This document shows, piece after piece, positions 926 through 34,481 of a DNA stretch of 64,000 nt; the stretch's first letter is position 1; each line of letters starts with the position of its first letter. The translations under genes and the position numbers were made by a program. The DNA is from a beta proteobacterium KB13 (GTDB taxonomy: Bacteria > Pseudomonadota > Gammaproteobacteria > Burkholderiales > Methylophilaceae): NCBI GenBank assembly GCA_000156155.1, contig DS995299.1, positions 645,827 to 709,826 on the forward strand. Reading direction: 5' to 3'. The notes under the pieces were generated by a model. That model searched no databases, had not been told where the DNA came from, and saw only the letters and a list, made by a program, of their open reading frames with translations.

Positions 926-1984
926 TTAGGAAAAGTATTTTTGGGCTTGTTCACTTCCCGGGATCAGATTATGTTTTTCCATTTCTTTCACAATTTGATT
1001 CATATGATTTTTGATTGAAGCTACATATACTGAATCAATTTCCTTATTTCGACCATCAACCATAACTGCATTTAGTTTAATGCAGAACTCATTCATCAAA
1101 TTTGTCATTTCATCAAAAGCATCTATACAATTATTTGTAGACGGGATATCAAGGCTCACAATAATGCCTTGTATAAAGGCATCACTATCAATTTTTAGTG
1201 GCTGTCTATTTAAATTCATAATTTTGAACATTTTTTGACCATCTACTTTTGGGTCAAAATACCAATGATAATTTTTAAAAAGCCTTATATTTGCTTTGTT
1301 AAAAAAATCTTGAAATGCCCCAAAGTGAAATGAACTATCTGTTTTGGGTTGAATTTTGATAAGAAAGTTTTTGTTGATTAATCTTTTAAATGGCACAAGG
1401 TTTGCAGTGCTTTCAATGATATCCTCATTTGATAACCATATCTGATTGACCTCTAAATGTTGTTTGATTTTTTCAATTAAATCTAAAAATTTCTGCTTTA
1501 CTAGCTGATCAATGTCCAACCTTCTTGATATCAGAGGAAGAGATAGAAGAATTTGATCAAATACATAGTTTTCATCAATCGCCTCACCTGTTGCCCACAA
1601 ACCATCATCTTTTCTTAGGTAGAGGCTTGTTTTTAGATCTCTCAGATAGGAAGTTATATCCAGATCCAACAAAACTCTTGCTTCGCTTGTTTTGTTCAGG
1701 GTAAGGCTAACAACAGACTCAAAATTGAGATTAATTTCACCAGGAAGATGTTTCTTTAAAAAATCTATTGATACGTTATGGTTTGATGGCTCATGAGCTA
1801 TAAAGTTATCTAACTCTGATGGGTTGTCGAAATTTTTATCGAACAGTGGATCATGCTGTCGACGCATTGAGTCTGCTTTTTTCTGCTTTTCACGAGTTTT
1901 TTTTAACTGCAACCAATTAAAAATAATCATGAATAAAACAATGGTTAATCCAAGGATTAACAGAGCAATCTGAACATCGCTCAT
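926..1984 (-). CDS. zipA: Cell division protein ZipA-like
   Basis: ZipA tethers FtsZ to the inner membrane at the division ring. The 352-residue product has one N-terminal membrane segment (about residues 5-25), a basic, charged linker (KKTREKQKK onwards), and a C-terminal globular region from about residue 90 that I take as the FtsZ-binding fold. Sequence conservation is low in this family, so much of the call rests on architecture and position between smc and ligA. Its start codon overlaps the smc stop by 4 bases (ATGA), indicating translational coupling. ligA follows after 6 bases. Confidence 0.8.
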   Translation of the reverse strand: MSDVQIALLILGLTIVLFMIIFNWLQLKKTREKQKKADSMRRQHDPLFDKNFDNPSELDNFIAHEPSNHNVSIDFLKKHLPGEINLNFESVVSLTLNKTSEARVLLDLDITSYLRDLKTSLYLRKDDGLWATGEAIDENYVFDQILLSLPLISRRLDIDQLVKQKFLDLIEKIKQHLEVNQIWLSNEDIIESTANLVPFKRLINKNFLIKIQPKTDSSFHFGAFQDFFNKANIRLFKNYHWYFDPKVDGQKMFKIMNLNRQPLKIDSDAFIQGIIVSLDIPSTNNCIDAFDEMTNLMNEFCIKLNAVMVDGRNKEIDSVYVASIKNHMNQIVKEMEKHNLIPGSEQAQKYFS

Positions 1985-4900
1985 GAAGTCACCTGACGCT
2001 CTTCTCTTGGGGTCTCCTTAGCATTATTTAAGTCAACCTCAACAATTTTAGAAACTCCTGACTCTTGCATCGTTACGCCTATAAGCTGTTCAGCAAGCTC
2101 CATGGTAATTTTGTTGTGTGAGACATACAAAAATTGTGTATTTGATGACATCTCTTTAACTAACTCACAAAATCTTTCTGTATTTGAATCATCAAGAGGT
2201 GCATCAACCTCATCTAATAAACAGAATGGTGCTGGATTTAATCTAAATAAAGCAAAAACTAATGCAATAGCTGTTAATGCTTTTTCACCACCTGATAAGA
2301 GATGGATGGTTGTATTTTTCTTTCCGGGTGGTTGAGCAACAATTTGTAATCCAGTATCTAATATTTCATTACCCAAGAGCTCAAGAACTGCCTTACCACC
2401 ACCAAACAACTTTCTAAAGTAATCATTTAAGTTTTGATTAACACTGTTATAAGTTTCTTTCAGCTTATCACGGGTTTCACGATCAATTTTACCAATAGCC
2501 TCTTCGAGTGTTGCGCTAGCTTGTGATAAATCTTCTACTTGGCTTGCAATGTATGCCACCCTCTCTCTTTCACTTTCAAGCTCTGATACAGCAGCCATAT
2601 TTATAGGGCCAATTCTTTCGATTTTTTGGTTTAATTTTTCAATTTTTTCCCCAATGGATGTTGCACTCTCACCATCAATTTCACTCGCCACTTCATCATC
2701 ATTTGTGTTGAACTTCAAGAATTCTTTTGCAGAGTAATCATAATCAATTTTAGTTTGTTGTTCCTTTAATGTCTCTGCTTGAAAAGTTTCAGAGATTGGA
2801 TTGATTTCTTGAATAATTGTTAGTCTGACTTGCTCCTTTTCCCTCAAGGCTGTTTCCTTAATGGCTAGCTGATCACGTTTATCCTTTAACTGCTCCTCTG
2901 CACTTTGTTTTTCATTGATGAATTTTTCTAAGTCTTGATTCAACTCATTGTGTTTTTGCGCAAATATATCCAAATTAAATTCACCAGAAGTTCTGCTGAG
3001 TGCACCTTGTTCGTTAGATAGAATTTGATTCCGCTCGTTTATATCGTTTATCTTGGCTTGGGCTAAATTGATCTTGTATTCTATTTCTCGTTTTTCTTTT
3101 TCAGCCTCATCAAATACTCTCTTTGCTTCAATGAACGACTGCTCTTTTGAATTTTTCTCAACGGAAACGTTTTCTATGGTTTTAGTTAAATCAGTAATTA
3201 CATTTGAAAGTTTCTGGCTAGTCTCATATTTAGTTTGCCTATCTGATGCAATAAGATTTTTTTCTTTATCTAAGGTCTCTAGCTCATCCGATATTGACTG
3301 AATCCTTTCTGTAGCAGATGCTTTTTGAAACCTTTGTCTTGAAAATTTTATCTCTAAAGCCTTTAATTCTTTCTCTGTAACATCACGCTGTTCAATTAAG
3401 TTGCTTAAGCTGTCTTTATTTTCATCCATCTTCTCTTTTTCTAGAGATATTTTTGAAACGACCGATTGATTAGTCTCTTGAAGCTTTTTTAAAGCCTCGC
3501 TAAGCTCTTCAATTTTTGCCTTTGTAGCGAATGCATCAACAGCAATATCATTGGTCCCGTGAAGATACTGGTAAAGCCTACCGTATATATTGCCGTTTTC
3601 ATCTACCAAAGACTGGCCGGGAGTTAGCTTTTTACGATAGGTATCCAGTTGACTCAAATCTTCAATTATAAAAATATTTTGTGTGAGTTCGCTAATAACC
3701 GGCTTGTATTCAGGCTCAATCTCTATCAATTGATTTAAGGGCTTTAAATCTTCAAAATTGGAATTATGGATTGACTCGCTTGATGATGTCATCACAGCGA
3801 CGCCAAAAGATGATTTATGAGTATTAAATTTAGATGAGAAATAAGCATTGGACTTAACTCCCATCACGGAATCTAGAGCTTTTGCAAACTTCTCATCAAT
3901 TTTAACTTTATTAAGCAAGCTGTTGTCTGAGTTAATATTATTATCTTCAAGCCAGCGATCGATTTGGTCTTGGTTAACTTGGGAATCGATTAAAGAATTT
4001 AAAGACTTAATTTCGGCCTCAACTTGACTTAACTCAGTTTGAATATCCTGACGCTCATCGTATAGCGCCTCCAAAACTTCTGAATGATCATCCATTGAAT
4101 CCTTTTTTGAGTTTATCTCCTCATTTAAACCCTCTATAACACTGCTGAGTTCAGCTATATTTTCATCGCCCGAGCTGTTTGCTTCGTTTAGTAAATTTTC
4201 TTGGTTCTTTAATTCTGTTTGTAACTGATCAAACCTTTTCTCAAAGTCTTGAATTTTACCGTCCATAAAGGATATGGTATTTTGGTCTAATCTTAACTGT
4301 TCTTTGCTCTCCTGAAGATTTTCTTCAACTGATTTAAATTCATTATTTATTTCTGAAAATTCAGATTCTGTTTTTTTGTAATGATCTTCTTTTTCTTTGT
4401 ATGTGTTCTGATATTCACTTATTAGTTTTTTATGCTCGGTCAGATCAACTTTGAGTTGATCTGATAGATTGTTCAATCTTGCAAGTTCTTCTGTGATTTT
4501 CTTGATGCGATTATTGCTTTGTTCAACCTGTGCCTTAGCTCGCTCTTCTTCATTTCGATTGGATTCAATCTTACTTTCTACGGAGCTTACCTTTGAGCTT
4601 ATTTCGTAAAAGTTTGCTTGGATTGGATTTAAGGCCTCATTTTCCGATTTGAGATCTTCCCGTGAATTTTCTACGGCAAGTTCCGCTTTAGTCAACTCAG
4701 TTTTCTTTTGCTCTAGCTTAACTTCAGTCTGCTTTAACTTCTCTTGAGATTCCTTCCAGGTTTTGGATGCTGTCTCTTTCTTTAAGTAAGCTAGTTGGGC
4801 TTCTAACTGTTTAAGCTGTTCCTTAAAAAGATTATATTTTTTTGCTGCCTCTGCTTGCGCTTCAAGCTTTGAAATAGCGGAATTGATTTCTTTTTCAAGA

Positions 4901-5487
4901 TCTTGAACGCGCTGAAGGTTATCTCTTGTATCACGTAGTCTGTATTCCGTCTCCTTCCTTCTTTCTTTGTATTTACTAATGCCCGCAGCTTCTTCCAGAA
5001 AATTTTTCAGCTCCTCTGGTTTTGCTTCAACAAGCTGTGAAACAGTATTTTGTCCAATAATGGCATAACCTCTTGTTCCCAAGCCGGTTCCATAAAAAAG
5101 GTCTGCTATATCTTTTCTACGAACATTGATACCATTAATTGAATAGGTTGATCCCTTGTCTTTTTCGATTGTTCTGCGGACTGCAATTTCGGAATATTTT
5201 GCCCATTCATTTGCAGCTTTGTTCTCAGTGTTGTCAAAAAGAAGTTCCACGCTGGCTCTTGATATTGCAGGTCTCGTGTCTGTTCCGTTAAATATGACAG
5301 ATTCCATCGACTCTCCTCTTAGCTCTTTTGCTGAGGATGAGCCCAGGACCCATTTAACTGATTCCATGATGTTTGATTTACCGCATCCATTTGGTCCGAC
5401 TATGCCAACTAATTGACCTGGTAAAGAGATGGTGGTGGGATCTACGAAGGTTTTAAAACCGGCCAACTTTATTTGTCTTAACTTCAA
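1981..5487 (-). CDS. smc: Chromosome segregation protein SMC
   Basis: SMC is the ATPase that compacts and individualises chromosomes. The N-terminal head has the Walker A motif GPNGCGKS. Long coiled coils (rich in E, K, Q, L) flank a hinge at roughly the middle. The C-terminal head carries the signature LLSGGEKAL and the Walker B stretch FCLLDEVDAPLDD. I chose a TTG start at 5487, giving MKLRQIKLAGFKTF, the usual start of the family, with a GAGAGAAG-type ribosome site just upstream. An in-frame ATG at 5538 would add 17 atypical residues. The TTG start also leaves 78 bases for divergent promoters shared with queF. Length (~1168 residues) is normal. It is first in the smc-zipA-ligA operon. Confidence 0.95.
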   Translation of the reverse strand: MKLRQIKLAGFKTFVDPTTISLPGQLVGIVGPNGCGKSNIMESVKWVLGSSSAKELRGESMESVIFNGTDTRPAISRASVELLFDNTENKAANEWAKYSEIAVRRTIEKDKGSTYSINGINVRRKDIADLFYGTGLGTRGYAIIGQNTVSQLVEAKPEELKNFLEEAAGISKYKERRKETEYRLRDTRDNLQRVQDLEKEINSAISKLEAQAEAAKKYNLFKEQLKQLEAQLAYLKKETASKTWKESQEKLKQTEVKLEQKKTELTKAELAVENSREDLKSENEALNPIQANFYEISSKVSSVESKIESNRNEEERAKAQVEQSNNRIKKITEELARLNNLSDQLKVDLTEHKKLISEYQNTYKEKEDHYKKTESEFSEINNEFKSVEENLQESKEQLRLDQNTISFMDGKIQDFEKRFDQLQTELKNQENLLNEANSSGDENIAELSSVIEGLNEEINSKKDSMDDHSEVLEALYDERQDIQTELSQVEAEIKSLNSLIDSQVNQDQIDRWLEDNNINSDNSLLNKVKIDEKFAKALDSVMGVKSNAYFSSKFNTHKSSFGVAVMTSSSESIHNSNFEDLKPLNQLIEIEPEYKPVISELTQNIFIIEDLSQLDTYRKKLTPGQSLVDENGNIYGRLYQYLHGTNDIAVDAFATKAKIEELSEALKKLQETNQSVVSKISLEKEKMDENKDSLSNLIEQRDVTEKELKALEIKFSRQRFQKASATERIQSISDELETLDKEKNLIASDRQTKYETSQKLSNVITDLTKTIENVSVEKNSKEQSFIEAKRVFDEAEKEKREIEYKINLAQAKINDINERNQILSNEQGALSRTSGEFNLDIFAQKHNELNQDLEKFINEKQSAEEQLKDKRDQLAIKETALREKEQVRLTIIQEINPISETFQAETLKEQQTKIDYDYSAKEFLKFNTNDDEVASEIDGESATSIGEKIEKLNQKIERIGPINMAAVSELESERERVAYIASQVEDLSQASATLEEAIGKIDRETRDKLKETYNSVNQNLNDYFRKLFGGGKAVLELLGNEILDTGLQIVAQPPGKKNTTIHLLSGGEKALTAIALVFALFRLNPAPFCLLDEVDAPLDDSNTERFCELVKEMSSNTQFLYVSHNKITMELAEQLIGVTMQESGVSKIVEVDLNNAKETPREERQVTS

Positions 5488-5527
5488 ATACTTCTCTCTA
5501 TGATCTATAAAATCGCAAAAATAATTG

Positions 5528-5533
5528 TATAAT
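5528..5533 (+). promoter_or_regulatory. Candidate -10 box for queF
   Basis: A perfect TATAAT lies 33 bases upstream of the queF start in the short divergent region between smc and queF. No good -35 hexamer sits 16-18 bases further upstream, so this is a weak prediction based on the -10 box alone. Confidence 0.35.
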
Positions 5534-5565
5534 TGCAAAAATTTTTTTAAAGGTTTAATACCACG

Positions 5566-6015: not shown

Positions 6016-6091
6016 GGGGGTATAGCTCAGCTGGGAGAGCACTTGCATGGCATGCAAGGGGTCAGCGGTTCGATCCCGCTTACCTCCACCA
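6016..6091 (+). tRNA. tRNA-Ala (anticodon GGC)
   Basis: A complete cloverleaf can be drawn. The acceptor GGGGGTA pairs with TACCTCC (one G-U), the D arm contains AGCTCAGCTGGGAGAGC, and the anticodon stem CTTGC/GCAAG frames loop ATGGCAT (anticodon GGC). The T arm is AGCGG-TTCGATC-CCGCT. CCA is encoded at 6089-6091. Its 3' end is the apparent attachment site of the island that follows. Confidence 0.98.
6069..6091 (+). repeat. Putative attachment site, left copy (tRNA-Ala 3' end)
   Basis: The last 23 bases of tRNA-Ala. Bases 6069-6089 recur with a single mismatch at 11476-11496, and bases 6081-6091 (TACCTCCACCA) recur exactly at 7718-7728. This is the pattern left when elements integrate at the 3' end of a tRNA gene. 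Confidence 0.6.
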
Positions 6092-6132
6092 AATTCCACT
6101 TTTACTAAAACCTAATAAATTCTAGTTGGATT

Positions 6133-6702
6133 TTAGATTCTAAGAAATTTTAAAATACGATGGCGTTGACTTGCAAGGATTGTTAAAAAAATCATACTTC
6201 CAGTTAAATCGCCAATGAAAGTCGCTATCCAATCTCTGTAAAAATTAGATAAAGTTGTACCTAAAATATAATAACCATATAGTGCATATAAAAAGCTATA
6301 AGTGAATGCATAAACAAAAGCCATAGATACAATTAATTTAAGATTTAGATTCTCAAGTTGTTTACCAAGTGGATATAAAGAGTTAAATGTATAAATTATC
6401 AAGATAGGTACTGTTGCGCTTAATGTTGCATAAAATATTATAGATAAAATAGAAGTATTTTCGAATAAAAAAACCATTGCAAAAAAGCTACCTAAGAAAA
6501 TGCCAACCCACGCATCTTCTTTATAGATTGCTGCAAAAAAAAATCTCATCCCTGCAGGTAAATAAATGAAGTGAATGTGTTCTTTATAGGTAAAAATTGA
6601 AAGAAAGTTATTATTTAAGACATAAAGTGTGAAGTAAACAACAGTAATAAATAAATAAAGCTTATATTTTCTGAAATTGAGTGAAATCATAGAGTTTATC
6701 AA
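6133..6702 (-). CDS. MASE1-like integral membrane protein without an output domain
   Basis: The 189-residue product is almost entirely hydrophobic, with about five or six membrane segments. The motifs IYLPAGMRFFFAA, WVGIFLGSF and FIGDLTGSMIFL resemble those of MASE1-type membrane sensor domains, which normally precede histidine kinase or GGDEF domains. Here nothing follows the membrane part, so it is a stand-alone sensor-like module of unknown function. Its start overlaps the end of the upstream winged-helix gene by about 40 bases; a second Met four residues in would still overlap. The gene lies inside the tRNA-Ala island. Classification is by motif resemblance only. Confidence 0.6.
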   Translation of the reverse strand: MINSMISLNFRKYKLYLFITVVYFTLYVLNNNFLSIFTYKEHIHFIYLPAGMRFFFAAIYKEDAWVGIFLGSFFAMVFLFENTSILSIIFYATLSATVPILIIYTFNSLYPLGKQLENLNLKLIVSMAFVYAFTYSFLYALYGYYILGTTLSNFYRDWIATFIGDLTGSMIFLTILASQRHRILKFLRI

Positions 6703-6997
6703 TCTCCATAAGGTATTTATTGTAATTTTTTCCTTTTTGAATAAATTTTACTCTTTCATCATCTTTTGAATTCACGTAATCCAGCACTTCAGACTGCTTC
6801 ATTTTTTTTAAGCGACGATGTATTGTGGAAGGAGATAAATTTTTAATTCCCTGAATTACATTATTAACTTTTAACTCTGATTTTTGAGACCACTTCATAT
6901 CTAGATATGCAATTATAAGAACATCTTCAAAATCAATCTTAGCTTCCGCAAGAGGTGCAATCGCATTTAGGAAGTTTGAAATACGTGTATTTGACAT
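6662..6997 (-). CDS. Small winged-helix (MarR-like) DNA-binding protein
   Basis: The 111-residue protein looks like a minimal winged helix. A helical N-terminus is followed by a recognition region near residues 50-75 (LSPSTIHRRLKKMKQSEVLDY) and then a wing-like SKDDERVKFIQKG, typical of MarR-type regulators. It is leftward and overlaps the membrane-protein gene downstream. MarR-type EctR repressors control ectABC in several methylotrophs, so a role in controlling the ectoine genes ~0.8 kb away is possible, but that is inference. Its short length means it may lack a normal dimerisation region. Confidence 0.65.
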   Translation of the reverse strand: MSNTRISNFLNAIAPLAEAKIDFEDVLIIAYLDMKWSQKSELKVNNVIQGIKNLSPSTIHRRLKKMKQSEVLDYVNSKDDERVKFIQKGKNYNKYLMEIDKLYDFTQFQKI

Positions 6998-7090
6998 AAA
7001 GTTATCTTTCTTAACTGGTTAATATGTATGAAATCTTAACATCATCTATTTTTAAAAAATAATATACTTATTCGAAAAGCATTTTGTGGA

Positions 7091-7408
7091 CTAAATTAAC
7101 CAATCTTCTCTAAACTTTTGCAACCAGTTTTTTTCTTTATTTGGTTGTTTAACCCTCTTAATATTTAATTTTTTTTCTAAATCATCTAAATTTTTTATTA
7201 ATTCTCTTGGTTCTTCTCCCAGTAGCTTAATATATTTTTTTAAAGATGAAAAAAAGAGATTTTTGGAACGATAAAAATTGATATCATTTTTCTCCAAAGC
7301 AATAATGTGCTGGTTTGATAAAGCCATTGTATGTGATAAATGATCGATATTTAAGTCTTTATTTTCCCTAAGCTGTTCTAAATATTTACAATCATAGTCA
7401 ATTATCAT
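7091..7408 (-). CDS. Small RodZ-N-terminus-like HTH protein
   Basis: The 105-residue protein carries a helix-turn-helix of the type at the N-terminus of RodZ (about residues 10-70: LRENKDLNIDHLSHTMALS, then IIALEKNDINFYRS and a helix ending LLGEEPRELI). It lacks the transmembrane and periplasmic parts of RodZ, ending instead with a basic tail and WLQKFREDWLI. It could be a DNA-binding regulator or a truncated scaffold protein. It is the first of three leftward genes in the island and faces away from ectA across a 400-base gap. Confidence 0.6.
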   Translation of the reverse strand: MIIDYDCKYLEQLRENKDLNIDHLSHTMALSNQHIIALEKNDINFYRSKNLFFSSLKKYIKLLGEEPRELIKNLDDLEKKLNIKRVKQPNKEKNWLQKFREDWLI

Positions 7409-7717
7409 ATTTAATTAAGTTGTATATAATATTAATGTCAATATAACATATATAGTCAATTTGACAAATAATTAAATATCGTTAAGAATATTAGTAGGTA
7501 TTTATTATATTGAAGAAACCTAAAATAATTTCATGCAGGTGAATTTATAGAGGTCTTTATTTATTAGCAACTTAAATAATGTAATAAATACCTAACTTAA
7601 AATTTAGAAATATCCACTTTTTTCTCCCATATATGTGGTAAAAAATGTGGGAAAAAGGAATATTAGTTTTATAAACTCTCAATATACAAAGAATTAATAA
7701 AAAATATTTATAGTAGA

Positions 7718-7728
7718 TACCTCCACCA
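7718..7728 (+). repeat. Internal copy of the tRNA-Ala 3' terminus
   Basis: TACCTCCACCA is identical to the last 11 bases of tRNA-Ala including CCA. It is a GC-rich string in very AT-rich surroundings and lies 80 bases upstream of ectA. It may mark the junction between two successive insertions at the same tRNA. Confidence 0.45.
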
Positions 7729-7745
7729 TTATGCTGTATTGAAAT

Positions 7746-7794
7746 TTACCTCTTAAATTAGGTAATAAGCAAGATTTTTTAGATCGTGTATGAT
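7746..7794 (+). promoter_or_regulatory. Candidate ectA promoter and operator
   Basis: The 400-base gap 7409-7808 holds no convincing gene. Near its right end is an inverted repeat TTACCT (7746-7751) / AGGTAA (7760-7765), a plausible operator. It is followed by a -10-like TATGAT at 7789-7794, 15 bases before the ectA ATG. The -35 is poor. If this -10 is used the leader would be very short, consistent with the lack of a Shine-Dalgarno sequence before ectA. An imperfect inverted repeat of CTCCCAT/ATGTGGG type lies further upstream at about 7617-7656. Confidence 0.3.
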
Positions 7795-7808
7795 TACAGT
7801 TCTAGAAT

Positions 7809-8336
7809 ATGACAATCGAAGTATATTCGGAACAAAATATTCAGATCAAAAAACCAACAATCAGTTATGGTTTACAAATTGCGGTTCTTGTAAAAAACTG
7901 TCCTCCGTTAGATTTAAATTCAACTTATCATTACTTTATTCAATCTCATTATTTCTCTGAAACATGTGCAATTGCAGTTAATGAGGATGATAAAGTTCTT
8001 GGTTATGTATCTGGTTTTACTAACCCTAAAGACCATAAAACTCTTTTTATTTGGCAGGTTGCCATTTCTGAATGTTCTCGTGGAAAAAGTCTAGCAACAA
8101 AATTAATACATTTTATTTTGCGTCATCATGATATTGAATTTATAGAAACAACAATCACTCAAGACAATAAAGCTTCACAGTCACTTTTTAAAAAAATTAG
8201 CAAAGATCTAGAAACAGAAATTACCGAAGTTTCATTCCTCGATAAATCTAAACATTTTTCAAACCAACATGATTCCGAATATCTTTTTCGTATCGGACCA
8301 TTAAAAACACCAAAGGAAAAAAATGAAAATATTTGA
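7809..8336 (+). CDS. ectA: L-2,4-diaminobutyrate acetyltransferase
   Basis: EctA acetylates L-2,4-diaminobutyrate with acetyl-CoA, the second step of ectoine synthesis in the cytosol. The 175-residue protein has the GNAT fold. The central GYVSGFTNPKDHKTLFIWQVA and the acetyl-CoA-binding helix start SECSRGKSLATKLI (about residues 90-103) are typical of EctA, as is the following TTITQDNKASQSLF. It overlaps ectB by 14 bases. No Shine-Dalgarno sequence is evident before the ATG. Aspartokinase and aspartate semialdehyde dehydrogenase, which supply the precursor, are not in the cluster. Confidence 0.95.
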   Translation: MTIEVYSEQNIQIKKPTISYGLQIAVLVKNCPPLDLNSTYHYFIQSHYFSETCAIAVNEDDKVLGYVSGFTNPKDHKTLFIWQVAISECSRGKSLATKLIHFILRHHDIEFIETTITQDNKASQSLFKKISKDLETEITEVSFLDKSKHFSNQHDSEYLFRIGPLKTPKEKNENI

Positions 8337-9636
8337 AGAAATAGAATCAGAAGTTCAAAGCTATGCCCGCTCATTTCCAAGAGTTTTTAATAAAGCTCAA
8401 GGAGAATATTTATATGATACCGAAGGGAATCAATACCTCGACTTCTTGGCGGGTGCCGGTACATTAAATTATGGACACAACAACCCTATATTTAAAAAGG
8501 AGTTGTTGAAGTACATTGAATCAGATGGTATCACGCATGGCTTAGACTTACACACCAATGCAAAGGGTAATTTTTTAAATACCTTTAATGACAAAATCCT
8601 TAAGCCGAGAAATATGGATTATATGGTTCAGTTTACTGGTCCAACTGGAGCAAATGCGGTTGAAACTGCCATGAAGCTTGCTCGAAAAATCAAACAAAGG
8701 GAGACAATAATTAGCTTCACTAATGGCTACCATGGTGTAACCCTTGGGGCGTTAGCCTCAACAGGAAATCAACATCATCGAGGTGGTGCTGGTATGTTGC
8801 TAACAGGCGTTGACACCCTACCCTATGATGGTTACATGGGTGATGACATTGACACAACAGCATATCTAGACAAAGTGTTAACTGATAGCAGTAGCGGTGT
8901 TGATCATCCAGCAGCCATTATAGTAGAAACGGTTCAAGGTGAAGGCGGTATTACTGCAGCAAGTTTTTCATGGTTACAAAACATTGAAAAAATATGTAAA
9001 AAACATGACATCTTACTGATTGTGGATGATATCCAGGCTGGTTGTGGACGAACCGGTACATTTTTTAGCTTTGATGAGGTTGGAATCCAACCTGACATCA
9101 TCACTATGTCAAAGTCTCTGAGTGGCTATGGTTTACCTTTTGCAATTGTGTTATTTAAGCCTGAACATGATATCTGGAAACCTGGAGAACACAATGGCAC
9201 ATTTAGAGGCAATAACCTTGCCTTTGTCACTGCCGAAGCAGCAATAAATCATTACTGGTCTGATGATTTATTTTCTAAAGAAGTAAAGCGAAAAGGCAAA
9301 TATATGTATGACCGTATCAATAAAATAATTGACCAATATGGCGAAGGAAATTTTTCATCACGAGGTCGAGGAATGTTCCAAGGTATTAATTGTGTGAGTG
9401 GGGAACTGGCAAGTAAAATTACTAAACTAGCCTTTAAAAATGGTTTAATGATCGAAACTAGTGGTGCAGATGATCATGTTATTAAATTCTTATGCCCATT
9501 AACAATTTCTGATCAAAATTTAAAAAGAGGTATAGATATTCTCGAGGATGCCATTGAGACAGTATGTGCAAAGGTTAAAAACTTTGATGAAGAGGTCGAT
9601 TACTTTGATGAAAATTATGAGGTTGAAGAAGAATGA
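8323..9636 (+). CDS. ectB: Diaminobutyrate--2-oxoglutarate aminotransferase
   Basis: EctB transaminates aspartate semialdehyde with glutamate to give 2,4-diaminobutyrate, the first committed step to ectoine. The 437-residue length is normal for this class III PLP aminotransferase. Seen are the FTGPTGANAVETAMKLAR cofactor region, the VDDIQAGCGRTG motif with the PLP-pyridine aspartate, and the Schiff-base lysine K264 in TMSKSLSGYG. The gene sits between ectA (14-base overlap) and ectC (4-base overlap). The acidic C-terminus (FDEEVDYFDENYEVEEE) is notable. Confidence 0.97.
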   Translation: MKIFEEIESEVQSYARSFPRVFNKAQGEYLYDTEGNQYLDFLAGAGTLNYGHNNPIFKKELLKYIESDGITHGLDLHTNAKGNFLNTFNDKILKPRNMDYMVQFTGPTGANAVETAMKLARKIKQRETIISFTNGYHGVTLGALASTGNQHHRGGAGMLLTGVDTLPYDGYMGDDIDTTAYLDKVLTDSSSGVDHPAAIIVETVQGEGGITAASFSWLQNIEKICKKHDILLIVDDIQAGCGRTGTFFSFDEVGIQPDIITMSKSLSGYGLPFAIVLFKPEHDIWKPGEHNGTFRGNNLAFVTAEAAINHYWSDDLFSKEVKRKGKYMYDRINKIIDQYGEGNFSSRGRGMFQGINCVSGELASKITKLAFKNGLMIETSGADDHVIKFLCPLTISDQNLKRGIDILEDAIETVCAKVKNFDEEVDYFDENYEVEEE

Positions 9637-10016
9637 TTGTAAGACATTTAAATGATTGTTTAATTGATAGAAAAATTGAAGACCCCTATGGAAACTGGAA
9701 TAGTGTTCGCATGTTATTAAAGGACGATGGCATGGGATTCTCTTTTCATATCACCACTATCTACGCCAACAGTTCAATGAAGATGCATTACATGAATCAT
9801 CTGGAATCGGTTTATTGCATTTCAGGTACAGGAACAATTAAGGATATGAAAACTAATCAGGAGCATAAAATTGAACCAGGTGTAATTTATGCTCTTGATC
9901 AACATGATGAACATATTCTTACTTCGCATGATGAAATGCAGCTGGCATGCGTATTTAATCCCCCAATCACGGGCACTGAAGTTCACAATAAACTAGGTGC
10001 ATATGAACTAGAATAA
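9633..10016 (+). CDS. ectC: L-ectoine synthase
   Basis: EctC cyclises N-gamma-acetyl-diaminobutyrate to ectoine. The 127-residue cupin begins MIVRHLNDC and contains SVRMLLKDDGMGFSFHITT, then the metal-binding cupin segments MHYMNHLESVYCISGTG and LDQHDEHIL, all characteristic of EctC. The start overlaps the ectB stop (ATGA). No ectD hydroxylase follows, so the product is predicted to be ectoine rather than 5-hydroxyectoine. Confidence 0.96.
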   Translation: MIVRHLNDCLIDRKIEDPYGNWNSVRMLLKDDGMGFSFHITTIYANSSMKMHYMNHLESVYCISGTGTIKDMKTNQEHKIEPGVIYALDQHDEHILTSHDEMQLACVFNPPITGTEVHNKLGAYELE

Positions 10017-10023
10017 ATCTTTT

Positions 10024-11409
10024 ATGGAAATTGTATTCCTTGGACTTTTACTTTTCATTGCTTTAATTGGGATTGCCTCCAGTAGATTAAATAAACCTAC
10101 GGTAAAAAATTACTACCTAGCAGATAAGTCTTTAAGCCCATTGTTATCTGGCTTGTCTGCAATGGCGACCAACAATAGCGGCTACATGTTTATTGGTCTT
10201 ATTGGGTTTACATATCTTAATGGGCTATCAAGTATATGGTTAATGATTGGTTGGATATTAGGTGATTATCTAATCACAAAAAAATTATTTGCAAATATTG
10301 TAAATAAAAGCTTCCGTTCAAGAAATGTTACCTACGCATCAATCATTGGCGATCTAGCTAAAAACAAACTGATCACCAAATTAATAGCATCAATTAGCTT
10401 TGTCTTTTTACTGATATACGCCTCTGCTCAATTCGCAGCCTCTGGGAAGACATTAATGGCAGTCATGAATTGGGAGTTCTATTATGGTGTAATCACTGGT
10501 GGCTTTATTGTTCTGGTTTATTCTTTAACAAGTGGGATCAGAGCATCAATTTGGACTGACGCAGCACAATCAATAATCATGTTAGTTTCTATGGGTTTGC
10601 TAGTTTTATTTTCAATTGGCAAACTTGGTGGAATTAATCAAACATTATTTCAACTATCTGAGATTGATGGCTTCATGAGCCTATTCGGACCAGATACTGG
10701 AGATTCTGTTTTATTTAATGCACTTTCATCCCTTAGCTGGATAGTTGCAGGTATGTTTGTAATTGGGCAACCTCACATAATGATTAGATTTTTTGCGGTT
10801 AAAGATCATAATGATCTAATCCGCTCAAGGATTTTTTATTATTCTAGTTATATATTATTTTATGGTTTAGCTTTTGCGGTTGGAATGTTATCCAGACTAA
10901 TTTTAGATAACACTGCTGGGTTTGATCCAGAATTAGCTTTACCCATGATGGCACAAATATTATTTAATCCCTTTATGGTTGGTCTAATCATTTCTGGAAT
11001 TTTTGCTGCAACAATGTCAACCGCTGATTCTTTGATTATTAATTGTTCAGGAAATATTTCACAAGATATATTTGAACTAACTAAGTTTTCGAAAGCGAAA
11101 ATAGCAGGTATTACACTACTTGTTGCCATTACCTCAATTATTATTGCTTTAATTAATAGCGGGAGCGTATTTTCTATAGTTGTGTTTTCATGGACGATAC
11201 TTGGTTTCTTACTTACCCCATTATTGATAATGATTTCTTTGAATAAAACAATAATTGCAAAACATTTTGTAATTTCAGGGATTCTTTCAACAATGATTTT
11301 TTATATTGTTAATAGCTATGTTTTTTTCGAAGGCATTTATTTGGGAATATATCCATTTGTTGTAAACTTGATATATTTACATTTCTTTTTAAAAAGAAGT
11401 AAAAACTAA
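10024..11409 (+). CDS. Sodium:solute symporter (SSS family, PutP-like)
   Basis: The 461-residue protein has about 12-13 membrane segments and the SSS-family layout. The N-terminus contains NYYLADKSLSPLLSGLSAMATNNSGYMF (residues ~30-57), the region that forms the sodium and substrate site, and TSGIRASIWTDAAQSIIM, a signature of the PutP subgroup. It starts 7 bases after ectC, so it is probably co-transcribed with ectABC. Uptake of proline, ectoine or a related compatible solute is a reasonable inference, but the substrate cannot be read from the sequence. Confidence 0.88.
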   Translation: MEIVFLGLLLFIALIGIASSRLNKPTVKNYYLADKSLSPLLSGLSAMATNNSGYMFIGLIGFTYLNGLSSIWLMIGWILGDYLITKKLFANIVNKSFRSRNVTYASIIGDLAKNKLITKLIASISFVFLLIYASAQFAASGKTLMAVMNWEFYYGVITGGFIVLVYSLTSGIRASIWTDAAQSIIMLVSMGLLVLFSIGKLGGINQTLFQLSEIDGFMSLFGPDTGDSVLFNALSSLSWIVAGMFVIGQPHIMIRFFAVKDHNDLIRSRIFYYSSYILFYGLAFAVGMLSRLILDNTAGFDPELALPMMAQILFNPFMVGLIISGIFAATMSTADSLIINCSGNISQDIFELTKFSKAKIAGITLLVAITSIIIALINSGSVFSIVVFSWTILGFLLTPLLIMISLNKTIIAKHFVISGILSTMIFYIVNSYVFFEGIYLGIYPFVVNLIYLHFFLKRSKN

Positions 11410-11427
11410 AAAGATGTGTTAAAAGTT

Positions 11428-11496
11428 GGGGTAATTGAACTGCAATGGCATCCATTGCACCCCATAGGTCTTCAATTCGGTCCCGCTTACCTCCAC
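11428..11496 (+). pseudogene. Decayed tRNA-Ala copy (right island boundary)
   Basis: Bases 11476-11496 match the tRNA-Ala 3' end (6069-6089) with one mismatch. Upstream, a GGGGTAA stretch can pair with TTACCTC like an acceptor stem, and the string TGGCAT of the anticodon loop is kept inside a perfect 8-bp hairpin (11441-11448 with 11452-11459). The D arm is missing, the T stem no longer pairs and the CCA is altered, so it cannot be a working tRNA. It is best read as a degraded duplicate of tRNA-Ala marking the distal end of the island. Confidence 0.6.
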
Positions 11497-11665
11497 AAAT
11501 TTCCTATTTAATAAGCTGTAATCTATTCTTAATAATTAATTACTATTGATGCACTTCTATTGTGCAAAGGCTCATAAAAAATCAGTAATTTTTAAATATT
11601 TGTGACATTTTTGATTATTTAATTAATTTTTAGGAACTCTTCATGTGCGGCAACGTCGAGCCCAT

Positions 11666-11821
11666 ATGATTTGTTCTACAGTAAATAATTTTTGTTTTAA
11701 TTGTAAACAACGAGCCAAATTTTTTGATAATTCAACGAGAAAGTGGTACTGTGGATTTTCAATAGATGCTCGTGGCGTGTGTAATAAAAAAAGAAGTGAA
11801 TTAAATACTTTTATTAATTAA
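11666..11821 (+). CDS. Small cysteine-rich protein, zinc-ribbon-like (uncertain)
   Basis: This 51-codon open frame encodes a basic peptide with five cysteines: C3, C10, C13, C29 and C39. The pair C10-x2-C13 (CFNCKQ) and the later single cysteines could bind zinc. The stretch KWYCGFSIDARGVCNKK is compositionally protein-like rather than random AT sequence. An eight-codon frame with a better ribosome site (AGGAAC, then ATG at 11643) ends with its TGA overlapping this ATG, which may couple translation. It lies in the 464-base gap between the symporter and the monooxygenase, just beyond the island boundary. I recognise no family. Confidence 0.4.
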   Translation: MICSTVNNFCFNCKQRAKFFDNSTRKWYCGFSIDARGVCNKKRSELNTFIN

Positions 11822-11873
11822 GAAGTTTTATGTAAAAATGAAATTCTTAACATCATATATGGGATCGTACTAG

Positions 11874-13214
11874 TTGGCTAACAAAGCAAACAAAGTCGAT
11901 ATCATAATTATTGGAGCCGGAATTGCCGGTATATCCAGTTCATACTATATTCAAAAAAATTTTCCCCATCTCAAATACAAAATTATTGAGGCTCGAAACG
12001 ACCTTGGTGGTACATGGGATCAAATGACTTTTCCTGGCGTTCGTTCGGACACCGATATGTATACCTATGGATATTCCTTCAATCCATGGCCAGGGTCAAT
12101 AATCGGAATGGGGAAAGAAATCAAACAATATCAAGTTGATACCGCTGAAAAATTTAATATCAAAGAAAATATTTTATTTAATACACACGTTAAGTCACTG
12201 TCTTGGAAAAACAAAACTTGGATAACAAAAACCAGTAAAGAAACCTTTCATAGTCAATATGTTGTTTGCTGCACGGGATCGCGCGATTATAGAGAGCCTA
12301 ACTTCCCAAAATTTAAAGACGAAGATAAATTTAAAGGTGAAATTGTACATACTCAGACATGGGGGAAGACAAGATTCAAAGGAAAGGATGTTGCCTTAAT
12401 TGGCAGTGGTTGCACCGCAGTAACCATGACACCCGCGATAGTTAAGGAAGCAAAGTCAGTTACACTTGTTCAACGAAGCCCTGCTTGGATTGTTAATGTG
12501 GATGGCAGCGAAAAATCAAATCGCCTGTATAAGACTTTTGAAACACTAATAGATTACGCTTACAGTCGGGTTTTTAAAAAACATTATAAAAAGAAAGTAT
12601 TGTCTCAGTATTCTAACTATTACTCTCATGACAATATTCCATCCTATGATTATTGGAATCAAAGGCCAGCATGCAGCTTAGATAATGATTATTTTGAATC
12701 TATAAAATCTAATAAAGTAACCGTGGAGCATTCAGGTATAAGTAATTGGGAAAAAAATGGACTTAAATTATTAAATGGAAAAAGTATCAAATGTGACCTA
12801 GCCATTATGGCAACCGGACTCAATGCTCAACTTCTGGGTGGTATCGATATATTGGTCAATGATAAAAAAGTTAATCTAAACAAAACAAGCTGGTATCGGG
12901 GAATGATGTTTAGTGGAATTCCAAATCTTTTTGCACACACTGGTTATATTAATTTTAGCTGGACTGCCCGATGTGAAATTGTCAGCGAGAGAATATGTAA
13001 GACGATAAAATATATGCAAAAGAATAGTTATACAAATTGCGTTCCAAAGTATAAAGGTGAAAAATCTAAGCCAGCTATCGAAGCAAATTATGTTCTAAGG
13101 TCCATTGATAAATTTCCTAATAGAAGTTACAAGTTTGATAATGCAAATTACTTAAATGAATATATTCAATTTAAGATGTCAAAGATAAACGATGGTGTAT
13201 TAAATTTCCAATAA
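11874..13214 (+). CDS. FAD-dependent monooxygenase, Baeyer-Villiger-like
   Basis: The 446-residue protein has an N-terminal FAD-binding Rossmann motif (GAGIAGISS, residues ~14-22) and a second dinucleotide-binding motif for NADPH (GSGCTA, about 177-182). Between them, FKGEIVHTQTWG (from about F153) matches the type I Baeyer-Villiger fingerprint F-x-G-x3-H-x3-W, except that Gly replaces the final Pro/Asp. It oxygenates a ketone, sulfide or amine; the substrate is unknown. The start is TTG. It lies 20 bases upstream of metY and may share its operon, hinting at sulfur-compound chemistry. Confidence 0.82.
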   Translation: MANKANKVDIIIIGAGIAGISSSYYIQKNFPHLKYKIIEARNDLGGTWDQMTFPGVRSDTDMYTYGYSFNPWPGSIIGMGKEIKQYQVDTAEKFNIKENILFNTHVKSLSWKNKTWITKTSKETFHSQYVVCCTGSRDYREPNFPKFKDEDKFKGEIVHTQTWGKTRFKGKDVALIGSGCTAVTMTPAIVKEAKSVTLVQRSPAWIVNVDGSEKSNRLYKTFETLIDYAYSRVFKKHYKKKVLSQYSNYYSHDNIPSYDYWNQRPACSLDNDYFESIKSNKVTVEHSGISNWEKNGLKLLNGKSIKCDLAIMATGLNAQLLGGIDILVNDKKVNLNKTSWYRGMMFSGIPNLFAHTGYINFSWTARCEIVSERICKTIKYMQKNSYTNCVPKYKGEKSKPAIEANYVLRSIDKFPNRSYKFDNANYLNEYIQFKMSKINDGVLNFQ

Positions 13215-13233: not shown

Positions 13234-14511
13234 ATGAAATTAGAATCATTAGCTCTGCATCACGGCTACAAACCAGAGCAAACCACAAAGGCTGCCAATA
13301 CTCCGATTTATCAAACATCAGGTTTTACTATCGATGACACCCAACACGGAGCCGACTTATTTGATCTTAAAGTTGAAGGAAACATTTACTCAAGAATTGG
13401 TAATCCTACAAATGCTGTATTAGAACAAAGAGTTGCTGCCATGGAAGGCGGTATTGCTGGCTTATCATTGGCATCAGGTATGTCTGCTATAACCTATGCT
13501 GTGCAATGTCTTGCGGGCCCTGGTGACAACATCATTAGTACAAACCAACTATACGGAGGCACCTACAACTGCTTTACACACAGTTTTCCAAAACAAGGAA
13601 TAAAGGTGAAGATGGTTGATGGTGCTGACTTTCAAGCTATTGAAAATGCAATTGATGGCAATACAAAGGCCTTATATTGTGAATCAATTGGAAATCCATC
13701 GGGTATCATTATTGATATCAAAAAGTTTGCTGAGATTGCAGATAAACATGGTATTCCATTGATTGTAGATAATACAGTGGCAACACCATACCTGTGCAGA
13801 CCTATAGATCTTGGGGCTTCCATTGTGGTCCATTCGCTCACCAAATACATAGATGGACATGGGTCAACAATTGGAGGAATAATTGTTGATTCTGGAAAAT
13901 TCGACTGGACAAAGGATCCAAAAAAATTTCCTATGCTCAATGAGCCTGACCCTTCTTATCATGGTGTTATTTACACAAAAGAGTTTAAAGAAGCAGCTTT
14001 TATTGCTTGTTGTCGAGTTGTTCCATTAAGAGAGACTGGTGCATGCCTGTCACCACACAGTGCATTTTTAATTATGCTCGGTCTCGAGTCCCTTGGAGTT
14101 AGAATGGAGCGCCATTGTGATAATGCTTTAGCTTTGGCCAAGCATTTAGAAAAGCATGATCGAGTTGCGTGGGTAAATTATGCTGCCCTTCCTGACGATA
14201 AATATCATGAGACATGTAAAAAAATTACCGGGGGAAAGGCTTCAGGCATTATCAGTTTTGGTATTAAAGGTGGCATGCGAGCAGCTACTAAATTTATCGA
14301 TGCCCTTCAGATGATTCTCAGAGTCTTGAGCATGGGTGACGCAAAATCACTAGCTTGTCATCCAGCATCGACACTGCATCGACAGCTAAATTCAGATCAG
14401 TTAGCTTTAGCTGGAGTTAGTGAAGATATGATTAGAATTTCAGTAGGTATTGAACACATCGATGATATTATTGCTGATGTAGATCAGGCAATCAAAGCTT
14501 CAGTAACTTAA
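13234..14511 (+). CDS. metY: O-acetylhomoserine (thiol)-lyase / sulfhydrylase
   Basis: MetY makes homocysteine (or methionine) from O-acetylhomoserine and sulfide (or methanethiol) using PLP. The 425-residue length fits. The fold-type I markers are present: YSRIGNPTNAVLEQR, LASGMSAI, GGTYNCF and the PLP lysine K204 in VVHSLTKYIDGHG. The C-terminal SCHPASTLH-type segment (ACHPASTLHRQL) and RISVGIEHIDDIIADVDQA are typical. It has a good ribosome site (AAAGG) and follows the flavin monooxygenase closely. Confidence 0.95.
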   Translation: MKLESLALHHGYKPEQTTKAANTPIYQTSGFTIDDTQHGADLFDLKVEGNIYSRIGNPTNAVLEQRVAAMEGGIAGLSLASGMSAITYAVQCLAGPGDNIISTNQLYGGTYNCFTHSFPKQGIKVKMVDGADFQAIENAIDGNTKALYCESIGNPSGIIIDIKKFAEIADKHGIPLIVDNTVATPYLCRPIDLGASIVVHSLTKYIDGHGSTIGGIIVDSGKFDWTKDPKKFPMLNEPDPSYHGVIYTKEFKEAAFIACCRVVPLRETGACLSPHSAFLIMLGLESLGVRMERHCDNALALAKHLEKHDRVAWVNYAALPDDKYHETCKKITGGKASGIISFGIKGGMRAATKFIDALQMILRVLSMGDAKSLACHPASTLHRQLNSDQLALAGVSEDMIRISVGIEHIDDIIADVDQAIKASVT

Positions 14512-29090: not shown

Positions 29091-29166
29091 GTCCCCATCG
29101 TCTAGAGGCCTAGGACACTGCCCTTTCACGGCGGCAACAGGGGTTCGAATCCCCTTGGGGACGCCA
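29091..29166 (+). tRNA. tRNA-Glu (anticodon TTC)
   Basis: The acceptor GTCCCCA pairs with TGGGGAC. The D arm, the anticodon stem around CCTTTCA (anticodon TTC) and the T arm GGGGTTCGAATCCCC are all present. CCA is encoded at 29164-29166. Confidence 0.98.
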
Positions 29167-33046: not shown

Positions 33047-33637
33047 GTGCATATTATTTTGAAAAAAGAAACTGCCAGAAAAAATTATCAAAAAAAACGT
33101 CAAGGATTATCTACTTTACAATTTGAAGAAGATTCGTCCCAAATTATCCGCAACCTATTTGGGTTAATTAAAAAATTTAAGCCAACCTGCATTCATTGCT
33201 TCTTAACTATTAATCAAAAAAGCGAGATTAATACAAAGCCCATCATAGAATATTGCTGGAAAAATCATATCGATGTCGTTGTTCCCGTCACTGACTTCAC
33301 AAACAATATGTTAAAAAATGCCAAATTTGAACCGAGTACCAAAACAGCACTCACAAAAAACAATATTCCAGAGCCGATTAATCCCATATGGGCTAATGAT
33401 AGCGATATTGATTTAGTGATCACACCGCTTTTGGCTTTTGATGCAATGGGACATCGAGTTGGATTTGGCAGAGGATTCTATGATTGTTTTTTTTCATCTT
33501 TAAATAATGAGGTAAAGAGAGTTGGGGTGAGTTTTTTTGAGCCTTGTGAAATTTTAGAGGATATCGATAATTATGATATTCCACTAACTCATTGTGTGAC
33601 GCCACAAACGACTTATTGCTTTAAGAAAGATAATTAA
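33047..33637 (+). CDS. 5-formyltetrahydrofolate cyclo-ligase
   Basis: This enzyme converts 5-formyl-THF to 5,10-methenyl-THF using ATP, salvaging inhibited folate. The 196-residue protein has the basic N-terminus (KKETARKNYQKKRQ), FLTINQKSEINTKPI in place of the usual sugar-like loop, and the C-terminal ATP-binding GHRVGFGRGFYDCFF followed by the family's VGVSF strand. The start could be GTG at 33047 or TTG at 33060. A strong hairpin terminator follows. Confidence 0.9.
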   Translation: MHIILKKETARKNYQKKRQGLSTLQFEEDSSQIIRNLFGLIKKFKPTCIHCFLTINQKSEINTKPIIEYCWKNHIDVVVPVTDFTNNMLKNAKFEPSTKTALTKNNIPEPINPIWANDSDIDLVITPLLAFDAMGHRVGFGRGFYDCFFSSLNNEVKRVGVSFFEPCEILEDIDNYDIPLTHCVTPQTTYCFKKDN

Positions 33638-33649
33638 TTTTTTAGATTG

Positions 33650-33671
33650 CAGGGAGCAAGAATGCTCCCTG
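33650..33671 (+). terminator. Rho-independent terminator between convergent genes
   Basis: A perfect 9-bp stem CAGGGAGCA / TGCTCCCTG with a 4-base loop is followed on the + strand by a T-rich run (TTATTTATTTTTT). It ends the cyclo-ligase transcript and may also serve panB on the other strand, where the T-run is poorer. Confidence 0.85.
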
Positions 33672-33677
33672 AATTAT

Positions 33678-34481
33678 TTATTTTTTAGCAGGCGGGTACG
33701 TCTCAGCTTCGGAGGGAAATGCTCCGGAATGAACATCCGCTGCAAATTGATTAACTGCCTTGGTAATAAGCTCTGCACCATTCAGATAGGTTCTCACAAA
33801 CCTTGGTTTGAAGTCAGTACAAAAACCTAACATATCTGGCAGCACCAGTGCTTGACCGTCTACGTCCAGGCCAGCGCCAACACCCACCACAGGAATCGCC
33901 ACAGCGTCTCGAACAGCCGCTCCAACATGTCGTGGCACAGCTTCCAAAACAATAGCAATACATCCGAGCTCTTCAAGTGTTTTTGCTTCTTCAATGATCT
34001 TTAGCTCACTTTCTTTTGTCTTGCCTTGAGGTTTAAATCCACCAATCGCATTATGATGCGTTGGGGTGAGGCCAATATGGCCTATCGTAGGTATGCCCGA
34101 CTCAGATAAATGTGCGTAGAGCTCCTCGTTACCATCTATACCCTCAATCTTGAGAGCATTGGCACCTGCCTTCATTAAGATTTCGACATTATCTAAGGCG
34201 TCATACAAACCCTTTCTGGTGCTCATAAAGGGCATGGCAGCAATTAGAAATTTATCCTTTGCGCCCTTCTTTACCGCTCGGGTATGCATGGCGATAGTCT
34301 CGACATCACAGTTAATAGTATTTTCATTACCATGAATAACCATGGACAGGTCATCACCAATCAGAATCCCATTAATGTCTGTGTCATTGAGAATTTTTGC
34401 GCTCCAATACTCATATGACGTGACAACAACAATTTTCTGACCATCTGCTTTTAATTTTTTAAAAGATTCCAAAACACTCAT
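33678..34481 (-). CDS. panB: 3-methyl-2-oxobutanoate hydroxymethyltransferase
   Basis: PanB transfers a hydroxymethyl group from 5,10-methylene-THF to ketoisovalerate to give ketopantoate, the first step of pantothenate synthesis. The 267-residue TIM-barrel has VTSYEYWSAKILND near the start, DDLSMVIHGNENT with the metal ligand, IPTIGHIGLTPTH, and the catalytic region LEAVPRHVGAAVRDAVAIPVVGVGAG. Tyr in TSYEYW replaces the Asp more usual after TSYD. panC is not adjacent. Confidence 0.94.
   Translation of the reverse strand: MSVLESFKKLKADGQKIVVVTSYEYWSAKILNDTDINGILIGDDLSMVIHGNENTINCDVETIAMHTRAVKKGAKDKFLIAAMPFMSTRKGLYDALDNVEILMKAGANALKIEGIDGNEELYAHLSESGIPTIGHIGLTPTHHNAIGGFKPQGKTKESELKIIEEAKTLEELGCIAIVLEAVPRHVGAAVRDAVAIPVVGVGAGLDVDGQALVLPDMLGFCTDFKPRFVRTYLNGAELITKAVNQFAADVHSGAFPSEAETYPPAKK

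Follow-up and report, generated by a model that had tools for sequence, protein, structure and literature searches.

The tRNA-Ala(GGC) gene of the beta proteobacterium KB13, a member of the Methylophilaceae, anchors a well-delimited array of small cargo cassettes, one of which carries the genes for ectoine synthesis; relatives hold other cassettes, or no ectoine genes, at this site. We analysed a window of 64,000 nucleotides, positions 645827–709826 of the single contig of the small, 1.334 Mb genome (G000) of a methylotroph that is probably marine. tRNA genes were called with ARAGORN and Rfam, and proteins with Pfam and curated TIGR/NF cut-offs, the gene-content scans covering 21 proteins. The comparison set comprised 187 genomes of the family and 31 of the genus. 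The defining features are, in window coordinates:

6016–6091, plus strand: tRNA-Ala(GGC), anchor of the array, with an intact 3' end (ARAGORN; Rfam 60.9 bits)
6092–7728, no strand assigned: element A (1.64 kb), cargo on the minus strand; bounded by exact copies of TACCTCCACCA, with 90% identical DNA in genome G157
7718–7728, plus strand: copy 1 of the tRNA-Ala 3' end (11/11), an exact TACCTCCACCA
7729–11498, plus strand: ectoine element (3.77 kb), between copies 1 and 2; its right end matches G015 (z 34.7)
7809–8336, plus strand: ectA, diaminobutyrate acetyltransferase (TIGR02406 166 bits, cut-off 120.6)
8323–9636, plus strand: ectB, diaminobutyrate-2-oxoglutarate transaminase (TIGR02407 662 bits, cut-off 552)
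9633–10016, plus strand: ectC, ectoine synthase (PF06339 178 bits; NF009806 177.9 bits, cut-off 128)
10024–11409, plus strand: sodium:solute symporter (SSF), PutP-like but below the PutP equivalog cut-off (PF00474 144 bits; TIGR02121 166 against 515.5)
11423–11434, plus strand: AAGTTGGGGTAA, an element-end motif, sole copy in the genome
11476–11498, plus strand: copy 2 of the tRNA-Ala 3' end (20/21 over 11476–11496), from a mismatch scan of the window

EctA, EctB and EctC, the enzymes of the ectoine pathway, all score above their curated cut-offs. From the known role of ectoine, the likely function of ectABC is osmoprotection.

The first-pass annotation of this DNA had placed three tRNA-Ala 3' ends here, and all three are confirmed. 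The 21-base TTCGATCCCGCTTACCTCCAC of the gene (6069–6089) recurs at 11476–11496 with one mismatch; the window holds no further site within 3 mismatches, and 100 shuffles gave none. The shorter TACCTCCACCA is exact at 6081–6091 and 7718–7728, with 0.01 copies expected in the window. The start of ectA at 7809, 81 bases past this repeat, likewise bears out the spacing of about 80 bases given before. TACCTCCACCA occurs twice in the genome, both times at the tRNA-Ala site, but its backwards-read control also occurs twice; the 11-mer alone is therefore not rare genome-wide, and it is the location that matters. Across the 31 genomes of the genus there are 72 occurrences against 22 for the control, 22 of the 72 being in tRNA-Ala itself. 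Within 25 kb downstream of tRNA-Ala, the same strand has six copies where about 0.33 would be expected (P 1.5e-6); this distance was set after the places were seen, and many genome sizes are rounded. Four more exact copies are in G119, on contigs other than that of its tRNA-Ala. Chance as the origin of the repeats is ruled out by the shuffles, the expected counts and the 25 kb enrichment test. Both borders thus bear a direct repeat derived from the 3' end of the target gene, as in cis-mobilizable elements (CIMEs) and accretion islands.

Copy 2 had been described as part of a decayed tRNA. This part of the description is weak: upstream of the 3'-most 23 bases, the similarity of 11416–11475 to the tRNA has p = 0.07 (p = 0.025 for the G015 copy), and neither ARAGORN nor Rfam calls a tRNA in 11424–11498. 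The decayed-tRNA reading is further weakened by AAGTTGGGGTAA, which is also present at the ends of other elements. That 11424–11498 is a whole tRNA in decay is a weak possibility, and most of the supposed tRNA is better read as the end of the element.

The variable stretch reaches well beyond the ectoine genes, to a second tRNA gene:

11874–13214, plus strand: FMO-like monooxygenase (profile match), in the interval of several relatives
13234–14511, plus strand: metY (profile match), in the interval of several relatives
29091–29166, plus strand: tRNA-Glu(TTC), the far border (ARAGORN), adjoining tRNA-Ala in other genera

In other genera tRNA-Glu follows 53–103 bases after tRNA-Ala in six of seven fetched loci (six genomes, five genera), and the contig of the seventh stops 161 bases past tRNA-Ala. 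The distance is 17–38 kb in 10 of the 11 genomes of this genus with both genes on one contig; in the eleventh, G080, the two lie 126 kb apart on opposite strands. Since tRNA-Glu adjoins tRNA-Ala elsewhere and starts at 29091 here, the variable stretch is 6092–29090, larger than first described. The earlier view of a composite island of two insertions is upheld as to its two elements and their anchor; these form part of a wider array.

Occupancy of the site differs between relatives. The genes directly behind tRNA-Ala differ pairwise among G000, G015, G034, G157, G056 and G046, except between G015 and G034, where a small reading frame and then ectABC-SSF come first. In G015 the ectoine element follows tRNA-Ala, its far end marked by a decayed tRNA copy (81% over 97 bases), and element A is absent; G034 has ectABC-SSF at the site with no distal tRNA copy. 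G056 carries a different insert that ends in TACCTCCACCA and is followed by FMO-metY, which in G046 and G065 is preceded by other genes; none of these three has EctC. A relative lacking just 7729–11496 had been predicted, and G157 is such a variant: DNA 90% identical to 6093–7677 is fused to DNA 91% identical to 11507–11890, ectABC is absent, and EctC has no match in this genome (88% complete, 5% contamination). The junction, however, lacks both repeats. It is therefore no clean attachment-site (att) excision; the ectoine element could have been lost imprecisely, or the junction could be an older state that has decayed.

Three side observations concern this interval. The minus-strand reading frame between tRNA-Ala and ectA encodes 71 aa in G015 (L046) and 90 aa in G034 (L047), begins in a signal-like manner and contains tandem repeats in frame, of which G015 has one unit fewer; the window has no such reading frame. 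The fthC-panB pair (window 33047–34481; L048, L056 and L065) lies behind tRNA-Ala or beyond tRNA-Glu depending on the genome, which suggests inversions or exchange across the interval. In five fragmented genomes (L050, L052, L059, L060 and L061) the contigs stop within about 120 bases after queF or right after tRNA-Ala, as is expected where a site varies between strains.

Among the 17 genomes for which 3 kb or more downstream of tRNA-Ala was fetched, 8 have further copies of the tRNA-Ala 3' end, which delimit 12 elements of 1346–5296 bases; more than one delimited element in tandem is found only in G000 and G156. The cargo is varied. It includes, by Pfam, a CDP-alcohol phosphatidyltransferase with a cytidylyltransferase (G098), a heavy-metal-associated protein (G151), a PD-(D/E)XK nuclease (G056) and an ECF-type sigma factor (G157). 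A gamma-glutamyltransferase, paired with a protein with a sub-cut-off methyltransferase match, comes from the scan of G074, where a second copy is lacking; relatives of this pair sit between tRNA copies in G141 and G156. The cargo and right end of element A are:

6133–6702, minus strand: MASE1-like membrane protein, below the Pfam cut-off (PF05231 E 3e-6, 27 bits against 29.8)
6662–6997, minus strand: SarA/Rot-like winged-helix regulator, below cut-off (PF22381 25.3 bits against 27)
7091–7408, minus strand: HTH_25-like regulator, just below cut-off (PF13413 24.0 bits against 24.6)
7634–7717, plus strand: right end of element A, matching that of the G056 insert (z 7.7)

Seven weak matches (a 16-mer with 4–5 mismatches, an 11-mer with 1) were dropped from the repeat scan: G000 2404, G034 1419 and 23597, G046 21265, G015 1050, G138 226 and G157c4 678. 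Those at G000 2404, G034 1419 and G015 1050 fall in smc, and the surroundings of G157c4 678 are closely similar. Judged only on the 16-mer, the copies at G000 7728 and G056 8739 are no stronger than the dropped rows; they were retained because of their exact 11-mer and common upstream end (z 7.7). The same scan of ten later or ectoine-bearing stretches gave 7 weak matches, of which two hold an exact 11-mer, both on a G147 stretch that carries neither tRNA; the three ectoine stretches gave none of the seven. At the neighbouring tRNA-Glu, G153 C7 (L210) has an exact 16-base 3' copy 596 bases behind the gene with one gene between (8959 and 9555 of the reversed stretch), and tRNA-Glu may thus anchor cassettes too.

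Some elements share their ends irrespective of cargo. Six left ends, chosen by eye out of 30 (two each in G156 and G151, one each in G098 and G092), are alike at 32–36 of their first 36 bases, and at 51–66 of 200 over bases 61–260 compared ungapped. At their left ends, the ectoine element of G015 and the second element of G157 are identical in 132 of 170 aligned bases (z 13.6), starting 3 bases past the tRNA end, and the first G157 element matches G104 (z 6.3). Two motifs, both selected by eye from these same sequences, mark certain ends. Four exact GGGGGTA-N5-GGGGGTA pairs occur, none more than 200 bases away from a tRNA copy, and there are no others in 1.06 million strand-bases; they lie 116 bases inside the left end (G157, G104) and 85 and 94 bases inside the right end (G157, G156). 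By eye, TGTGGTA (7634) and TGTGGGA (7646), 12 bases apart in the right end of element A, are degenerate forms of the pair. The other motif, AAGTTGGGGTAA, occurs 11 times in the 31 genomes against 4 for its backwards control: exactly two copies in G015, one at each end of its ectoine element, and in G157 a single copy at the left end of an element. Both motifs resemble tyrosine-integrase arm sites, judging by the general structure of phage attachment sites.

We consider it probable that in this genus the tRNA-Ala(GGC) 3' end serves as an attachment site where small cargo elements accumulate, sometimes in tandem. Boundaries, ends common to part of the elements, variable cargo, presence or absence in relatives and a search that found no integrase gene are direct observations, to which we add by inference a recombinase and an order of events. 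A site-specific recombinase would join the tRNA 3' end carried by an element to the gene, so that an intact tRNA is restored and a 3' copy remains at the far border. The next element would enter at the intact tRNA, and the most recent arrival would therefore be closest to the gene; in the window, element A would stand in front of a presumably older ectABC-symporter element. The elements consist of cargo plus ends resembling recombinase-recognition sequences, namely the common 36-base left ends in one subset and the GGGGGTA pairs in a few. Lacking a recombinase of their own they would be non-autonomous, moved by an enzyme from elsewhere or left as remnants that lost theirs.

The search for a recombinase that acts on tRNA-Ala found none. 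In the 10 genomes whose interval is on a single contig, PF00589 has no match (E 0.001 or better) between the two tRNAs. Every one of the 31 genus genomes has Phage_integrase matches; in the window genome there are just two, presumably XerC and XerD. Additional integrases in the genus share their stretches with other tRNA genes, including Pro/Arg/His, Phe, Met and Arg(cct). The serine-recombinase family PF00239 is matched only in G046, outside the interval. No integrase-bearing relative sharing the att sites was found by exact pattern among the 187 family genomes or viral contigs; the viral scan for the tRNA end with the left-end motif returned 11 loci, none with an ARAGORN tRNA gene. No conjugation genes are among the 21 proteins scanned, although no search aimed at relaxase or type IV secretion was made.

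The integrases at other tRNA genes, together with the small genome and the decayed repeats in the window, would suit remnants of integrase-bearing islands or prophages, decayed CIMEs whose integrase was lost from a streamlined genome. No element retains a PF00589 match, yet the ends are sharp in G156, G151, G098 and G092, and we lean somewhat against this explanation. Another way to do without an enzyme in the element is a turnover array of 1.3–5.3 kb units with standard ends, swapped like integron cassettes by a recombinase acting in trans, which we regard as rather unlikely. If true, the enzyme would come from another island, a phage or a plasmid, and would serve sites at tRNA-Ala and perhaps once at tRNA-Glu (G153), exchanging traits such as ectoine synthesis, the heavy-metal-associated protein and the sigma-factor unit. 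An IntI-type tyrosine recombinase, as is expected next to an integron cassette array, was not found beside the array in the PF00589 search.

EctC is found in 6 of the 31 genomes and ectABC-SSF is contiguous in all six. EctB, counted on 23 genomes of the genus and EctC on 31, forms one clade in the six (100/100), with G138 and G150 branching first, then G114, then G000, G034 and G015; the tree holds 31 of 80 named loci (the best 80 of 575), the six genus sequences and one of genus g10. Around the clade are mostly marine gammaproteobacterial sequences, with Gallionellaceae, one Burkholderiaceae and one Kiritimatiellota, and the best outside identities among the best 80 of 575 are 74–75%. The branching there does not resolve, so no donor is named. 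ectABC-SSF follows tRNA-Ala in G000, G015 and G034. In G114 it adjoins genes that come after tRNA-Glu in several other genomes, in G138 it is near FMO-metY, and in G150 it is about 5 kb from relatives of the genes accompanying the heavy-metal-associated protein of G151. Given one EctB clade and these other neighbours, the genes probably entered the genus earlier, and the tRNA-Ala site is one later address. The best fit is one gain, apparently a single entry into the genus, after which the genes were lost or relocated; repeated exchange among members of the genus is a possible alternative history. Another genus of the family has an ectoine cluster of its own (G029, L071), with EctB 60–61% identical and a symporter about 1 kb away; lying outside the clade of six, it is apparently an independent gain.

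Alternatively, ectABC could have been inherited vertically from long ago and stand behind tRNA-Ala by coincidence. In favour of this, the EctB order resembles the queF identities of the four relatives that have both genes (G034 99, G015 99, G114 89, G138 79%). However, EctC is confined to the six genomes, and G046 and G056, closer by queF (95–97%) than G114, are without it; in G015 each end of the cassette bears a matching end motif and a tRNA copy, and the neighbours vary between clades. We therefore judge vertical inheritance improbable.

Between G034 and the window, DNA identity is 75% for smc (window 926–5538), 93% for queF and 96% for SulP, with zipA at 79% as protein; queF, ectB, ectC, SSF, MFS, patB, dhaLK and SulP are at 91–96%, and ectA and EptA are low. 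These mosaic identities and the divergent window ectA point to recombination. Homologous exchange through the conserved flanks (queF-tRNA-Ala, SulP-tRNA-Glu) and short repeats, with the tRNA copies as relics and no recombinase today, would draw on the same pattern: differences of 25% in smc, 7% in queF, 8–9% in ectB, ectC and SSF, and 4–5% in dhaLK and SulP, with ectA (20–23%) and EptA (27%) again differing more, form a mosaic typical of homologous recombination. No integrase was found in the interval, and recombination-driven replacement islands are described in the same family (Layoun et al. 2024, PMC10872708). Flanks alone, on the other hand, would not be expected to yield tRNA-3' borders, common ends on unrelated cargo or border repeat pairs. 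Exchange of this kind as the whole explanation is plausible, and we place it a little short of even.

Several observations weigh against the explanation by a tRNA-Ala attachment site. Nine of the 17 genomes have no second copy of the tRNA end. End comparisons gave z above 5 in only 5 of 57 pairs, two of them between the ectoine cassettes themselves, and z below 3 in the other 52; the left end of element A matches none of the 12 left ends compared. With up to 3 mismatches allowed, GGGGGTA pairs number 5 near tRNA copies and 15 elsewhere, the exact form being at four ends only, and AAGTTGGGGTAA has seven other copies (G056, G132, G124, G074, two in G098, and G155). A tRNA end with an exact repeat pair is limited to G157 and G104 among the 187 family genomes, with no PF00589 match on those contigs, and is absent from viral contigs. 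The G157 junction lacks about 50 bases on the left and 8–10 on the right, both tRNA copies included. No tRNA-Ala 3' copy is on the fetched ectABC stretches of G114, G138 and G150, the G114 contig ending at ectA. Finally, the window ectA is 78–80% identical to those of G015 and G034, which are 95% alike mutually, and ectB is 92–93% identical. The cassette is thus not uniform, and since the divergence is spread over the gene, ectA (7809–8336) may have been exchanged.

The structure is of a known kind, its nearest precedents being CIMEs and the Dehalococcoides ssrA islands; we found no description of the tRNA-Ala site. CIMEs and tandem accretion at tRNA genes (PMC5704250) share the att-like border repeats of a tRNA 3' end, the tandem arrays and the lack of an integrase, here by PF00589 and PF00239 searches; what differs is that no autonomous parent was found at the site, and that the elements are very small and some have common ends. 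The Dehalococcoides islands (PMC3146451), 15 without an integration module and 16 with a serine-recombinase module, likewise form a tandem series downstream of a single RNA gene whose 3' end is repeated at their borders, and carry adaptive cargo, but here no serine-recombinase module was found and the target is tRNA-Ala. Within the same family three main flexible islands are described (Layoun et al. 2024, PMC10872708). The additive island fGI-2 of Ca. Methylopumilus resembles the array in that the last 20 bases of a tRNA are repeated before variable cargo; it differs in using tRNA-Lys and is reported only in two freshwater species. The main text of that paper makes no mention of ectoine or tRNA-Ala, though its Figure 3 is said to box unnamed insertion sites. 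Tycheposons (PMC10872708), too, are tRNA-anchored elements with ecological cargo in streamlined plankton, but they are characterized by a tyrosine recombinase, found in none of the 10 intervals here. The gene set itself is known: ectABC followed by putP was noted in the OM43 strains KB13 and MBRS-H7 and interpreted as horizontally acquired (Salcher et al. 2019, PMC6794327), in a main text that does not mention island, tRNA, mobile or integrase. No report on Methylophilaceae with tRNA-Ala and an island was found in the open-licence literature.

The array ties ectoine synthesis, likely a trait of the passage from freshwater to the sea, to a defined and repeatedly used landing site. To our knowledge, few routes are known by which streamlined ocean bacteria gain whole traits. 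The end sequences described here could be used to seek the missing recombinase, and to follow the traffic of small cargo, in isolates and metagenomes.

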